64,000 bases of DNA from an uncultured Clostridium sp. (GTDB lineage Bacteria > Bacillota > Clostridia > Oscillospirales > Oscillospiraceae), in NCBI GenBank assembly GCA_904420465.1, contig CAJFVL010000001.1, forward strand, positions 1 to 64,000, written 5' to 3'. The notes beneath the pieces are model-generated. The model worked only from the letters and a program-made list of their open reading frames with translations, ran no database searches and was not told the origin of the DNA. Both the position numbers and the translations under genes were made by a program. Within the stretch, counting starts at the first letter, position 1. Every line of letters starts with the position of its first letter. Shown piece after piece: positions 41,348-56,333 of the stretch.

Positions 41348-41446
41348 CACACACAGAAAAAGCCCCAGGCTTTCACCTGGGGCTTTTTCTGTGTGTGTTG
41401 TAAAGGAGAGGGAGAAATGGGAGATATCTTCTTGAACTCTGGGTAC
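41348..41446 (-). ncRNA. Candidate small RNA A (anti-SD C/U-rich segment + 22-bp terminator hairpin)
   Basis: Minus-strand promoter-like repeats at 41506-41468 and -10 TATCAT 41458-41453; CUCCCAUUUCUCCCUCUCCUUUACAACAC; perfect stem 41348-41369/41376-41397. Confidence 0.55.
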
Positions 41447-41467
41447 GAGTGTATGATAAAATAAAAA

Positions 41468-41506
41468 TGAGACAAAATCGTGACGCGGCCGTGAATTTTT
41501 TGTAAA
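41468..41506 (-). promoter_or_regulatory. 11-bp-periodic direct repeats TTTACA-N5-TTCACG-N5-GTCACG-N5-GTCTCA (OmpR/PhoB-type box), 9 nt before -10
   Basis: Directly read on the minus strand; identical layout 200 bp away. Confidence 0.65.
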
Positions 41507-41554
41507 CTTCCAAACCCGTGGGAGGGCAATCCGACCCCATCTGCCGACGCCGCG

Positions 41555-41646
41555 ACAGCAGACAGCCCCGGCCGAAGCCGGGGCTGTCTGCTGTGTGTTG
41601 TAAAGAAAGAGAGAGAAATGAGAGATGGATTACAGATCTTGGCCAC
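41555..41646 (-). ncRNA. Candidate small RNA B (paralogue of A; 18-bp hairpin with UUCG loop)
   Basis: -10 TATGCT 41658-41653; CUCUCAUUUCUCUCUCUUUCUUUACAACAC; stem 41555-41572/41577-41594; no U tract, so the 3' end is uncertain. Confidence 0.5.
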
Positions 41647-41667
41647 GCTGTCAGCATACAATGTAAT

Positions 41668-41706
41668 TGCGTCAAGATCGTGACGTCCCCGTGAACTTTT
41701 TGTAAA
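41668..41706 (-). promoter_or_regulatory. 11-bp-periodic direct repeats TTTACA-N5-TTCACG-N5-GTCACG-N5-GACGCA, 9 nt before -10
   Basis: Minus strand; exactly 200 bp from the equivalent array of sRNA A. Confidence 0.65.
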
Positions 41707-41850: not shown

Positions 41851-43041
41851 GTGTTTTCTTTGATCCAAACTATCATTCGGGCCTGCCTCCGGGGCAGAAA
41901 TCCCCAGTCCCCCGAGACCCGCCGTCTGTGCGGCACCGTGGCGGGTGCCGCCGGAATTGCCCTCAACGCCCTGCTGGCCCTGGTCAAGTTTTCCGCCGGC
42001 ATTCTCTCCTCCTCCGTCGCCATGGTGGCCGACGCGGCAAACAACCTGTCCGACGCGGCCACCTCCGTGGTCACCCTGGTAGGCTTCCGGCTGGCCGGGC
42101 AGGCCGCTGACGCCGAGCACCCCTTTGGCCATGGCCGCATTGAGTATGTTTCCGGACTGATTGTCTCTCTGGCCATCCTGCTCATGGGGGTGGAGGTGGG
42201 CCGTTCCGCCCTGGATTCCCTGCTCCACCCCGCCCCGGTTCAGGCCTCCCTCCCATCCCTGCTTATTCTGGCCGCGGCCATTCTGGTCAAGCTGTGGATG
42301 TTTTGCTTCAACCGCGCCCTGGGCCGGGCCATCGGTTCGGCCGCCATGGAGGCTACCGCCGCCGACTCCCTGTCCGATATGGCCTCTACCGCGGTGGTTC
42401 TTCTCTCCACGCTTCTGGGCCAGGTAACGGATCTGCCCATCGACGGGCTGGCCGGTCTGGCTGTTGCCGTTCTGATTTTAAAAACCGGCTTGGACTCCGC
42501 CCGCAGCACGCTGGACCCCCTGCTGGGCCGCCCCATGGACCCGGAGCTGGCTGATGACATCGACAAGCTGGTGCTCGGCCATGATAAAATTCTGGGTATC
42601 CACGACCTTGTCTATCACGACTACGGCCCCGGCCGCGCCATGATGTCCTTTCATGCCGAGGTGCCCGCCGACGGCGATCTGCTGGAGCTCCATGACCTGA
42701 TCGACCACATCGAGCGCGAGCTGAAGGCCAAGCACCACATCGAAGCCGTCATTCACATGGACCCGGTGGTCCGGGATGAGCGCACCGACGGCCTGCGCAG
42801 CCAGGTATCCAACCTGGCCCAGGCCCTGGACCCCGCCCTGACCATCCACGACTTTCGGATCACGCCCGGTCCCTGCCACACCAACCTGATTTTTGATGTG
42901 GTGGTGCCTTATGGCTTCCGTCTCACCGACAGCCAGGTCCGCTCCGAGCTGGAAAAAGGGATCAAGCAGATCTCTCCCCGCTATTTCCCTGTCATTCAGG
43001 TGGACCACTCCTATGTAGACAGCCGGCCTTCCAGCCGCTAA
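41851..43041 (+). CDS. Cation diffusion facilitator family transporter
   Basis: SSSVAMVADAANNLSDAATSVVTLVGFRLAGQAADAEHPFGHGRIEYVSGL; HxxxD motifs. Confidence 0.95.
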   Translation: MFSLIQTIIRACLRGRNPQSPETRRLCGTVAGAAGIALNALLALVKFSAGILSSSVAMVADAANNLSDAATSVVTLVGFRLAGQAADAEHPFGHGRIEYVSGLIVSLAILLMGVEVGRSALDSLLHPAPVQASLPSLLILAAAILVKLWMFCFNRALGRAIGSAAMEATAADSLSDMASTAVVLLSTLLGQVTDLPIDGLAGLAVAVLILKTGLDSARSTLDPLLGRPMDPELADDIDKLVLGHDKILGIHDLVYHDYGPGRAMMSFHAEVPADGDLLELHDLIDHIERELKAKHHIEAVIHMDPVVRDERTDGLRSQVSNLAQALDPALTIHDFRITPGPCHTNLIFDVVVPYGFRLTDSQVRSELEKGIKQISPRYFPVIQVDHSYVDSRPSSR

Positions 43042-43083
43042 TTCACAATTTATTCACCCAAGATGCCGCTTTGGCGCTATAAT
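43042..43083 (+). promoter_or_regulatory. Direct repeat TTCACA-N5-TTCACC, 19 nt before TATAAT, upstream of the response regulator gene
   Basis: Same repeat type and similar -10 spacing as the sRNA promoters. Confidence 0.55.
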
Positions 43084-43163: not shown

Positions 43164-43871
43164 ATGGGGGTTGCCTTTATGCCCAAAAAGGTTTTGATTG
43201 TAGAGGATGACGGCAATATTGCCGAGCTGCTCCATCTCTATCTGGAGAAGGAGGGCTTTGAAACCCAGGTGGCCAAGGACGGAGGCCGCGGCGTGGAGCT
43301 GTTTCGCTCCTTCCAGCCCGACCTTGTGCTGCTGGACATCATGCTTCCGGTGATGGACGGCTGGTCCGTCCTGAAAAAAATTCGTGAAACGGACAAAACG
43401 CCCGTCATCATGCTCACCGCCAAGGGAGAGACGGAGGACAAGGTCACCGGTCTGGAGAGCGGCGCCGATGACTACATCGTCAAGCCCTTTGAGATGAAGG
43501 AGGTGCTGGCCCGCATCCACGCCGTCCTTCGGCGGGCGGGCGGCGAGGAGGAGCCCCAGGAGAAAAAGCTGACCTTTGACAAGCTGGTCATCAACCTGGA
43601 CTCCTATGAGCTGCTGGTGGACGGCCAGCGGGTGGACACCCCTCCAAAGGAGCTGGAGCTGCTGTACCACCTGGCCTCCTCCCCCAACCGGGTATTCACC
43701 CGCAACCAGCTGCTGGACGAGGTATGGGGCTTTGATTACTTCGGCGACAGCCGAACAGTGGATGTGCACATCAAGCGCCTTCGAGAAAAGCTGGAGGGCG
43801 TCAGTGACCAATGGCGTCTGAAAACAGTGTGGGGTGTGGGCTACAAATTTGAAGTAAGCTCCGCCGGCTGA
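43164..43871 (+). CDS. OmpR/PhoB-family response regulator
   Basis: KKVLIVEDDGNIAELLHLYLEKEG, LVLLDIMLPVMDGW, winged-helix DSRTVDVHIKRLREKLE. Confidence 0.97.
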   Translation: MGVAFMPKKVLIVEDDGNIAELLHLYLEKEGFETQVAKDGGRGVELFRSFQPDLVLLDIMLPVMDGWSVLKKIRETDKTPVIMLTAKGETEDKVTGLESGADDYIVKPFEMKEVLARIHAVLRRAGGEEEPQEKKLTFDKLVINLDSYELLVDGQRVDTPPKELELLYHLASSPNRVFTRNQLLDEVWGFDYFGDSRTVDVHIKRLREKLEGVSDQWRLKTVWGVGYKFEVSSAG

Positions 43872-43992: not shown

Positions 43993-45435
43993 GTGATCCT
44001 GTTGAAGTCGCTTTACAAGCGCCAGCTGCTGATGATGGTGGGCGTGATGATTTTGTCCTTCACTCTGCTTTCCGCGTCGTTTATGCTGCTGTTCTACCGG
44101 TATATTATCTCAGAAAAGCGAGATTCCATGGCGCGCAACGCGGGCTATATCGCCAATTTCACCTCCTCCTATTCTCAATTTCTGGATATCCGGAGTGACG
44201 ACTACAAAAGCTATGTGGCCTCCATTGCCCTGATCTCCGACGCTTTTGTCATCGTGGCCACTACCGATGGAGACATTGTCTATGCCACCGACGGCACCTA
44301 CTTTTACTCCTATGGGGATACCAAAGTCCCCCAGACGGTGATCGACCAGGTGCTGAACTCCGGCTCCTACACCGGCCTGACCAATCTGGACGGCATCTAT
44401 CCCGAGCGGCGCTACCTGGCCAGTCTGCCAGTCACCAACACGCTGGCCGGAATTCCGGTGATCAGCGGACTGGTGCTGGTGGCCGCCGACGCCTCCAGTC
44501 TGTCCGAGATGTGGACCGCCACCGCCACCATCTTCTTCTTTACCGCCGTGGTGGTGCTGCTGATCGCGGTCATTGCCAGCTCCCTCACCTCCGCCTATCA
44601 GGCCCGCCCGCTGAATGAGATGGCCGAGGCGGCCCGGCGCTTCGGCCGGGGTGAGTTTGACGTGCGGGTCACCGGCTATGAAAACCGCTGCGACGAGATC
44701 AGCACACTGGCCGAGGCCTTCAACTCCATGGCCAACTCGCTGGCCAAAGTGGAGAGCCAGCGCTCTGAATTCATCGCCAATGTCTCCCATGAGCTTAAAA
44801 CGCCCATGACCACCATCTCCGGCTTTGCCGAAGGAATTCTGGACGGCACCATTCCTCCGGAGCGGGAGCGGGAGTTTCTCCAGGTTATCGTCTCTGAGAC
44901 CCGCCGTCTCTCCCGCCTGGTGCGCCGCATGCTGGACCTGAGCAGGCTGGACGCCCTGTCGGAACATGCCGTCACCGCCCAGGAGCAGTTTGATCTGACC
45001 GACGTGGTCTCTCAGGTGCTCATCAGCCTGGAGTCCAAAATCACTCAGCGCGGCCTGGATGTGGACGTTCAGATGCCCGAGGACAAGCTGATGGTATGGG
45101 GTGATCCGGACGCCATCACCCAGGTATGCTACAACCTGCTGGATAACGCGGCCAAGTTTGCCGCCCCCGGCAGCACCATCACGGTGCAGATCACCAAAAA
45201 GGACGGCAAGGCCTTTACCTCCATCCGAAACCTGGGCTCCACCATCCCGCCTGACGAGCTTCCTCTCCTCTTTGACCGCTTCCACAAGGCGGATTACTCC
45301 CGCTCCATGGACCGGGACGGGGTTGGCCTGGGGCTGTATATCGTCAAAACCATTCTGGGCAATCTAAAGGAAAACATCACCGTCACCAGCGAGGACGGTG
45401 TCACCCAGTTCACCTTCACCCTTACGCTGGCCTGA
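43993..45435 (+). CDS. Sensor histidine kinase (2 TM, HAMP, HisKA, HATPase)
   Basis: SEFIANVSHELKTPMTTISGFAEGILDGTIP, NLLDNAAKFA, GVGLGLYIVK. Confidence 0.96.
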   Translation: MILLKSLYKRQLLMMVGVMILSFTLLSASFMLLFYRYIISEKRDSMARNAGYIANFTSSYSQFLDIRSDDYKSYVASIALISDAFVIVATTDGDIVYATDGTYFYSYGDTKVPQTVIDQVLNSGSYTGLTNLDGIYPERRYLASLPVTNTLAGIPVISGLVLVAADASSLSEMWTATATIFFFTAVVVLLIAVIASSLTSAYQARPLNEMAEAARRFGRGEFDVRVTGYENRCDEISTLAEAFNSMANSLAKVESQRSEFIANVSHELKTPMTTISGFAEGILDGTIPPEREREFLQVIVSETRRLSRLVRRMLDLSRLDALSEHAVTAQEQFDLTDVVSQVLISLESKITQRGLDVDVQMPEDKLMVWGDPDAITQVCYNLLDNAAKFAAPGSTITVQITKKDGKAFTSIRNLGSTIPPDELPLLFDRFHKADYSRSMDRDGVGLGLYIVKTILGNLKENITVTSEDGVTQFTFTLTLA

Positions 45436-45601
45436 ACGCGGCCGTCTTTCCCGTGATGTTTTCTTTTGGGCCCCATCTCAGATGGGGCGGCGCTCCGGGA
45501 GCCGCGCTCCGCCGCACCTTTCCCTTTCCCCTGGCACAGCGCTCCCATAAGCTCTCCCCTGGCCTCCAGGGCATGATATTGCTTTGATCGGAGGGATCTC
45601 A

Positions 45602-46834
45602 TTGGACAACCGGAACGATGATTTGTGGCAGGGCGGTCCCTGGGAGCAGCCCTCTCCCGTCTGTCCCCTCCCTCCCACCTTCTCCATCCCTCCGGTCCGG
45701 CCCGTGCTGCGCCCCAGGCGCCGCCGCCGGCGATGGCCCTGGTTTGCCGGACTGCTGTCCCTGGTCTTGGTCTTGTGTGCTGCCGCCGTCATTCTGGGCG
45801 GGCAGACCATAACCCGCATCTTCTCCTACCAACCGCCCTCTCAGGACGGCGGCGGCTATCAGACTCAGGAGTACAGCACTGATCCGCCGTCCATTCCCCG
45901 GGCCGAGACAGGCACCGGAGTCACCCTCACCCTCCACCCGGACACGGGGGAGACCCTGACCTATACGGAAATCTACGACAAGTGCCTCCCCTCCATGGTG
46001 TCCATCGAGGCAATTTCTTCCTCAACCTACAGCACCGGCACCGGCATCGTCGTGACGTCGGACGGCTATATTGTCACCAACGCCCATGTGGTGGCGGGAG
46101 CCAGTCAGGTGCGCGTGATCCTGTGGGACAACGAGGTTCTGGACGCCAGTCTGGTCGGCTTTGACGCGGAGGAGGATCTCGCTGTCCTGAAGATCGAGGC
46201 CGCGGGGCTGACCCCCGCTGAATTCGGCGACTCCTCCTCTCTGCGCATCGGGGACCCGGTGGCCGCCCTGGGCGACCCTCTGGGCTACCGCTCCACCATC
46301 ACTGACGGCATCATCTCCGCCCTGGACCGCGAGGTGGAGGTGGACGGGGTGACCATGGTGCTCATTCAAACCAGCGCGGCCATCAACTTCGGCAACTCGG
46401 GGGGCGCCCTTATCAACCAATACGGCCAGGTTGTGGGGGTCACCACCATTAAAATCGTCACTGACGACGGCTCCGCCGAGGCCCTTGGCTTTGCCATCCC
46501 CTCCACCCGGGTCAAATATGTGGTCGATACCCTGATTGCCGGCGGAGAGATCCGCTCCGGCGTCTTTGGCTTTACCGTCAACACCCGCCCGGTGGAGGGA
46601 GGCGGTCTGGAAATCATTGAGGTGGACCCCGCCAGCGATGCCTATGCCAAAGGGATTCAGGCTGGCGACGTCATTCTCTCCGCCAATGGCCGGGAGGTCT
46701 CCGGCACCCAGGATCTGAGCCGGATCAAGCTCTCCCTGGGACCGGGAGACGGGGTGGAGCTCACCCTTCGCCGCTCCGACGGGACCCTCTACACGGTGGA
46801 GGTGCTTCTGGTGGATACGGAGCTGATCGGCTAG
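45602..46834 (+). CDS. HtrA/DegP-like membrane-anchored serine protease with PDZ domain
   Basis: STGTGIVVTSDGYIVTNAHVV, AEEDLAVLKIEA, IQTSAAINFGNSGGALIN, C-terminal PDZ; TTG start after ggaggg. Confidence 0.95.
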   Translation: MDNRNDDLWQGGPWEQPSPVCPLPPTFSIPPVRPVLRPRRRRRRWPWFAGLLSLVLVLCAAAVILGGQTITRIFSYQPPSQDGGGYQTQEYSTDPPSIPRAETGTGVTLTLHPDTGETLTYTEIYDKCLPSMVSIEAISSSTYSTGTGIVVTSDGYIVTNAHVVAGASQVRVILWDNEVLDASLVGFDAEEDLAVLKIEAAGLTPAEFGDSSSLRIGDPVAALGDPLGYRSTITDGIISALDREVEVDGVTMVLIQTSAAINFGNSGGALINQYGQVVGVTTIKIVTDDGSAEALGFAIPSTRVKYVVDTLIAGGEIRSGVFGFTVNTRPVEGGGLEIIEVDPASDAYAKGIQAGDVILSANGREVSGTQDLSRIKLSLGPGDGVELTLRRSDGTLYTVEVLLVDTELIG

Positions 46835-55757: not shown

Positions 55758-56165
55758 TCAGATTTCCTCAATCCGTTTGACCACCCGCATGGTGGCTGAC
55801 TCGGGCTCCAGCAGCGCATAGCAGGAGGCCGACCTGAAATAGTCCCCTGACTCCTTGGGCAGATTCCGCTGCCGGGTCACCCGGTACCCAAAGGGCCGCA
55901 GAATGGTCTTTACCATGCAGCCCACTGTCTGCCGCACCGGATTCTCCGTCACCTGAAAATCCGGATCGTCAATTTGGAGCATACACGCCTCTGCCTGCCG
56001 GGCACAGGGGGTCAGCGCCGGCTGTCCCCGCTCCGCGGCGTCCAGCATAGCCAGCAGATTCTCATCCTGGGACAGCAGATCAAATACGATCTGCGCCGCC
56101 TTGTTGTCCCGATATTTGCCGCAAGTAGGGTTCTCTTTCAGAAAATCTTGAAACGTCGCTTTCAT
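55758..56165 (-). CDS. Conserved hypothetical protein
   Basis: 136 aa ORF with SD ggagagg; MKATFQDFLKENPTCGKYRDNKAAQIVFDLLSQ. Confidence 0.7.
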   Translation of the reverse strand: MKATFQDFLKENPTCGKYRDNKAAQIVFDLLSQDENLLAMLDAAERGQPALTPCARQAEACMLQIDDPDFQVTENPVRQTVGCMVKTILRPFGYRVTRQRNLPKESGDYFRSASCYALLEPESATMRVVKRIEEI

Positions 56166-56333
56166 TTCACCCTCTCCTTTCAAATATCCAAAAATAAATA
56201 TGCTTTATGCGCACATATATTAGCATATATAAATTTATATGTCAATGTCCTTTCCACACTAACTCAGAAAAATTTCCAGCCCCATGTATAACCACCTCCG
56301 GGCCTGTCCACAATAGGCTTCGGAGGTGGTTTT

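Follow-up and report, generated by a model that had tools for sequence, protein, structure and literature searches.

Tandem genes of a predicted anti-Shine-Dalgarno small RNA family beside an RR-HK-HtrA locus in Oscillospiraceae

The window analyzed here, the whole 64,000-nucleotide stretch of a contig from an uncultured Clostridium sp., carries two similar units on its minus strand, unit A at 41348-41506 and unit B at 41555-41706. A 51-nt direct repeat (78% identical) and a 14-nt repeat, both spaced exactly 200 bp, confirm the offset given in the original prediction. Each unit opens with three half-sites, TTTACA-N5-TTCACG-N5-GTCACG (minus strand, 41479-41506 in A and 41679-41706 in B). A pattern search allowing up to three mismatches matched this earlier-described arrangement in the window only at units A and B (0.03 matches are expected by chance per window), with no further sites in the whole assembly. 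The fourth half-sites (GTCTCA, 41468-41473 in A; GACGCA, 41668-41673 in B; both minus), the 9-nt spacers and the -10 hexamers (TATCAT, 41453-41458; TATGCT, 41653-41658; both minus) were likewise found as described. With half-sites at 11-bp spacing and no -35 hexamer, these are promoters of activator type.

Placing the start of small RNA A about 7 nt past the -10 hexamer, we predict from the covariance model and the fold a transcript of ~99 nt (41348-41446, minus). Small RNA B (41555-41646, minus) is predicted from the covariance model at ~92 nt. The model matches are 41353-41450 (E 3.8e-25) and 41556-41650 (E 1.2e-21), respectively. Both RNAs end in perfect inverted repeats of the lengths first reported. 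Terminal hairpin A (41348-41397, minus) pairs 41348-41369 with 41376-41397 over 22 bp and has a U-rich 3' arm; terminal hairpin B (41555-41594, minus) pairs 41555-41572 with 41577-41594 over 18 bp, with a C(UUCG)G loop and no clean U-tract. The CU-rich conserved segment begins about 27 nt past the -10 hexamer and not some 40 nt downstream, as had been stated. In unit A this segment, AUCUCCCAUUUCUCCCUCUCCUUUACAACACA (41394-41425, minus), complements a canonical Shine-Dalgarno (SD) sequence plus start codon, AAAGGAGAGGGAGAAATG. The unit B segment, AUCUCUCAUUUCUCUCUCUUUCUUUACAACACA (41594-41626, minus), has the complement AAAGAAAGAGAGAGAAATG, without GGAG. The proposed complementarity to SD plus start codon therefore stands in full for unit A only. 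Copy B has lost its complement to GGAG, and probably acts more weakly or on different targets. The predicted unpaired fraction of the segment is 0.58 in A and 0.85 in B.

Beside the small RNAs, in divergent orientation, lies a gene for a cation diffusion facilitator (CDF; 41851-43041, plus). It is followed on the same strand by a promoter, TTCACA-N5-TTCACC-N19-TATAAT (43042-43083), and by genes for an OmpR/PhoB-family response regulator (RR; 43164-43871; Pfam Response_reg and Trans_reg_C), which is the presumed activator of the small RNAs, a sensor histidine kinase (HK; 43993-45435; HAMP, HisKA, HATPase_c) and an HtrA/DegP-type serine protease with a PDZ domain (45584-46834). This likely regulator, the loss of GGAG in B and the genus-wide range with two paralogue classes described below were not part of the original prediction.

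When 60 related genomes were searched at the DNA level, 36 gave matches, almost all of the same genus; 49 distinct copies were collected, which have the promoter, CU core and hairpin in common. The half-sites of unit A are kept in the 49 copies and in other genera, which supports the OmpR/PhoB-type activator promoter originally suggested. The promoter consensus of the 49 copies is TTtACAAAAAgTTCAc-N6-GTCAcGAttTtGCC, then TAtgAT; the RNA core is AUCUCCCAUUUCUCCCUCUCCUUU(U)ACAACACA in class 1 and AUGUAUCUCCUUUCUCUCUCCUUUACAACACA in class 2. Tandem copies are common among the relatives. The covariance search that had been recommended, carried out with a model termed R1, gave RNA matches in 56 of 64 genomes from the genus, mostly two per genome. 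Several small-genome species of the genus gave no R1 match, some of them with the RR-type box kept. Genomes G028, G074 and G075 (same genus, ~1.8-1.9 Mb) retain the RR-type promoter box and have no R1 match at E 1e-9; there, the RNAs may have been lost or have strongly diverged. In one relative, a degenerate third copy (L002:1410-1560) has an eroded CU core and an intact hairpin.

The exact core pattern occurs in 62 stretches of a collection holding one genome per species (84,980 species). The named records are all Oscillospiraceae or else labeled only Firmicutes, Bacillota or Clostridiales, and the genera include Pseudoflavonifractor, Flavonifractor, Lawsonibacter, Flintibacter and Colidextribacter. 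R1 also reaches other genera of the family, where the copies are more diverged; upstream of many of these copies the promoter box, which is outside the model, stands at the expected place. A promoter-plus-RNA model, R2, whose alignment takes in most of these diverged copies, matches them at E 1e-17 to 1e-21. Of 394 genomes from the order, R2 matches 18 at E 1e-6; almost all of these belong to the family, and part of them went into building the model. Weak R1 matches outside the family were mostly generic terminators, and most were removed by R2; single weak matches left in three other families are plausible-looking and not secure. Three weak R2 matches, L242 (family f26), L244 (same family, genus g33) and L245 (family f12), combine box-like repeats, a CU-rich stretch and a terminator and may be distant members. 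The Rfam search gave no family match, only below-threshold noise. We regard the small RNA family as genuinely new and of a known functional kind.

In the other genera the CU segment is CUCCCUCCUAA or CUCUCUCUCCUAA, complementing AGGAGG or AGGAG; thus, this complementarity outlasts sequence change. The CU-rich segments are predicted to be mostly unpaired, with a mean of 0.76 over the copies; many of those in class 1 come close to 0.95. In class 2 the stretch is predicted to be less accessible, mostly 0.35-0.6 unpaired. A search of 61 genomes for near-perfect complements to the RNA revealed no conserved mRNA target; most exact matches were the RNA genes themselves. The best target match in the assembly, AAAGGAGAGGGTGAAATG (56163-56180, minus), precedes a gene that none of 60 other genomes of the genus contains. 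The start region of a 138-aa ORF (55758-56174 of the window, minus) is complementary to RNA A at 17 of 18 positions. This ORF has no Pfam or NCBIfam match and no homologue in the 60 other genomes of the genus, and was dropped as a conserved target because it is a singleton gene. Recurring imperfect matches include sites upstream of genes that, from reading their translations, we take to be etfA-, rnfG- and TRAP-type binding protein-like. The rnfG-like site was rejected as a conserved target: it appears to lie within the coding end of the preceding gene, and its conservation therefore proves nothing.

The lack of a conserved target in the complement search of the 61 genomes would also suit RNAs that are real and RR-controlled, but whose CU-rich stretch serves mainly as a sponge for a protein or RNA instead of blocking SD sites. 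Such a function could account for a stretch that exceeds, in length and in conservation (UUUACAACACACA included), what anti-SD pairing requires. However, the part that survives change in other genera is the exact AGGAG/AGGAGG complement, and SD regions are the known or proposed binding sites of LhrC and the csRNAs, which are alike in design. A sponge is therefore unlikely, although it keeps a small and real chance of being correct.

The identity of the regulator is suggested by the promoters. Among 29 distinct RR upstream regions of relatives, 28 carry the box TTYACA-N5-TTCAY with a -10 hexamer, as against none of 76 control upstreams (HK, HtrA, CDF). Within the genus, the RR is 87-94% identical, and most of 14 RR orthologues from other genera keep the box. 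The array-CDF-RR-HK-HtrA block is found in many relatives. This co-conservation strongly suggests that the RR drives the small RNA promoters. PHO boxes are similar to the TTTACA/TTCAC repeats with their 11-bp period, and in relative G016 the RR gene lies far from the array; another regulator of the OmpR family, such as a phosphate regulator of PhoB/PhoP type, could drive the RNAs, with the adjoining two-component system (TCS) a mere neighbor. We consider this improbable, since the same half-sites precede the RR gene itself, its box sits at the matching distance from the -10 hexamer, and the synteny links array and regulator.

A genus-wide box search returned mostly one to two matches per genome, with controls near zero. 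Outside the RR promoter the box recurs, as TTTACATTTTATTCAY..TTTTGTGGTAT..TAggAT, upstream of a gene for an AI-2E-family permease; about ten genomes show it, including this assembly (G000:C17:8241-8283; L072). The permease is likely to be a second member of the regulon. Other genes were preceded by the box in single cases; one of them encodes a protein that weakly matches rhomboid. No box precedes the HtrA gene itself, and its membership in the regulon therefore rests on operon structure. The RR falls below every equivalog cutoff shown in NCBIfam; among solved structures, those of mycobacterial RegX3 and MtrA are closest to it.

The strand assignment follows from the hairpin and the promoter. 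RNAalifold found compensatory changes in 15 of the 16 pairs of the terminal hairpin. Over all copies, its pairs comprise 58 G-U versus 4 A-C, which would be reversed on the opposite strand, indicating that the minus strand is transcribed. Whole-molecule folding energy does not favor the sRNA strand, and the argument therefore rests on pair types and promoter. Changes in T3/T4 length in the minus-strand core break every reading frame. On the plus strand, both units show an SD-like run of purines, then ATG and a short ORF, as if short leader peptides with strong SDs, MGDIFLNSGYECMIK and MRDGLQILATLSAYNVIASRS, were encoded downstream of the hairpin. These ORFs, however, span 4 to 29 aa and share no common peptide, CATTTCTC, the complement of the start, is missing in 14 of 49 copies, and both the G-U asymmetry and the activator/-10 promoter indicate the minus strand. 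Plus-strand peptides, rejected for lack of ORF conservation, thus seem very improbable. The duplication with diverged spacers might also be taken for a functionless decayed repeat or mobile-element remnant, but two copies are conserved genus-wide with covariation, which refutes this idea almost completely. The sequence evidence shows A and B to be genes for one family of small RNAs (~90-100 nt), encoded on the minus strand and sharing the covarying hairpin and a strongly conserved CU-rich stretch, and the original call of tandem minus-strand small RNA genes is upheld by relatives, covariation, strand asymmetry and conserved promoter.

We propose that these small RNAs block Shine-Dalgarno sites and are induced by a TCS of the CiaRH/LisRK type that responds to envelope stress, and assign this reading a probability of roughly 0.8. 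The phosphorylated RR would bind the small RNA half-sites, as the conserved boxes strongly suggest, and also appears to bind at its own RR-HK-HtrA operon, so that RNA synthesis would follow when the kinase detects stress at the envelope or in secretion. The CU-rich stretch would pair with the purine-rich SD regions of several mRNAs, and in class 1 also with the AUG, stopping ribosome binding. The cell would then make less of some proteins, probably those of the envelope or for export, while HtrA would clear damaged ones. Repression of translation in trans, together with the targets and the stress signal, is what we infer from this arrangement.

A broader proposal, which we hold tentatively and at somewhat under even odds, is that a regulon of anti-SD small RNAs under an RR-HK-HtrA system for envelope stress spans the Oscillospiraceae, possibly the order, and arose independently of the csRNAs and LhrC. 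If so, HtrA-linked TCSs of Bacillota convergently recruit multicopy RNAs that block ribosome sites. We found no small RNA regulon described for these bacteria, a large gut group, in the open-access literature. The locus would provide a third example of one regulatory logic, bearing on whether such logic evolves convergently. It also offers a ready RNA family for which a candidate regulator, a box and a mechanism can be named, and cultured Pseudoflavonifractor or Flintibacter species are suitable for testing them.

RsaE/RoxS is a C-rich anti-SD small RNA of Bacillota; unlike it, the present RNAs reach only 22.8 bits with its Rfam model, against a gathering score of 79. The likeness to LhrC is closer. 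LhrC, under LisRK, binds SD regions through CU-rich stretches (PMC4132741, PMC5880928), and corresponding pairing is predicted here. Like LhrC1-5 of Listeria monocytogenes, the RNAs are multicopy, here usually two per genome. LhrC1-5 are induced by an envelope-stress TCS; here box and synteny agree with such induction, which is predicted. In contrast, the Rfam search, with matches up to E 5, includes no LhrC. LhrC has three redundant CU-rich sites (loop A, a single-stranded stretch and the terminator loop), whereas there is one here and the terminator loops are not CU-rich. The RNAs also occur in another class of Bacillota, with the array often near TCS genes.

The csRNAs of Streptococcus, under CiaRH, carry an unpaired anti-SD/AUG stretch (PMC3091779). 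They too are several similar RNAs per genome, with direct-repeat promoters of an OmpR-family regulator, and the CiaRH regulon includes htrA, as HtrA here belongs to the RR-HK-HtrA block. The unpaired segment complementing SD plus AUG is matched in unit A and class 1, and in part in unit B, and the terminal hairpin is likewise shared. The half-sites TTTACA/TTCACG/GTCACG at 11 bp differ from TTTAAG; the CiaR consensus is NTTAAG-N5-TTTAAG, ten nt before the -10 (PMC3091779). The csRNAs have a stem-loop on either side of the unpaired segment; here the terminal hairpin is present in all copies and a 5' stem in about half (at least 5 bp in 24 of 49 copies; shuffles average 13.8, maximum 21). No sequence homology to the csRNAs is evident. 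The family thus resembles LhrC and the csRNAs in design and not in sequence, and by the tests made it is a member of neither.
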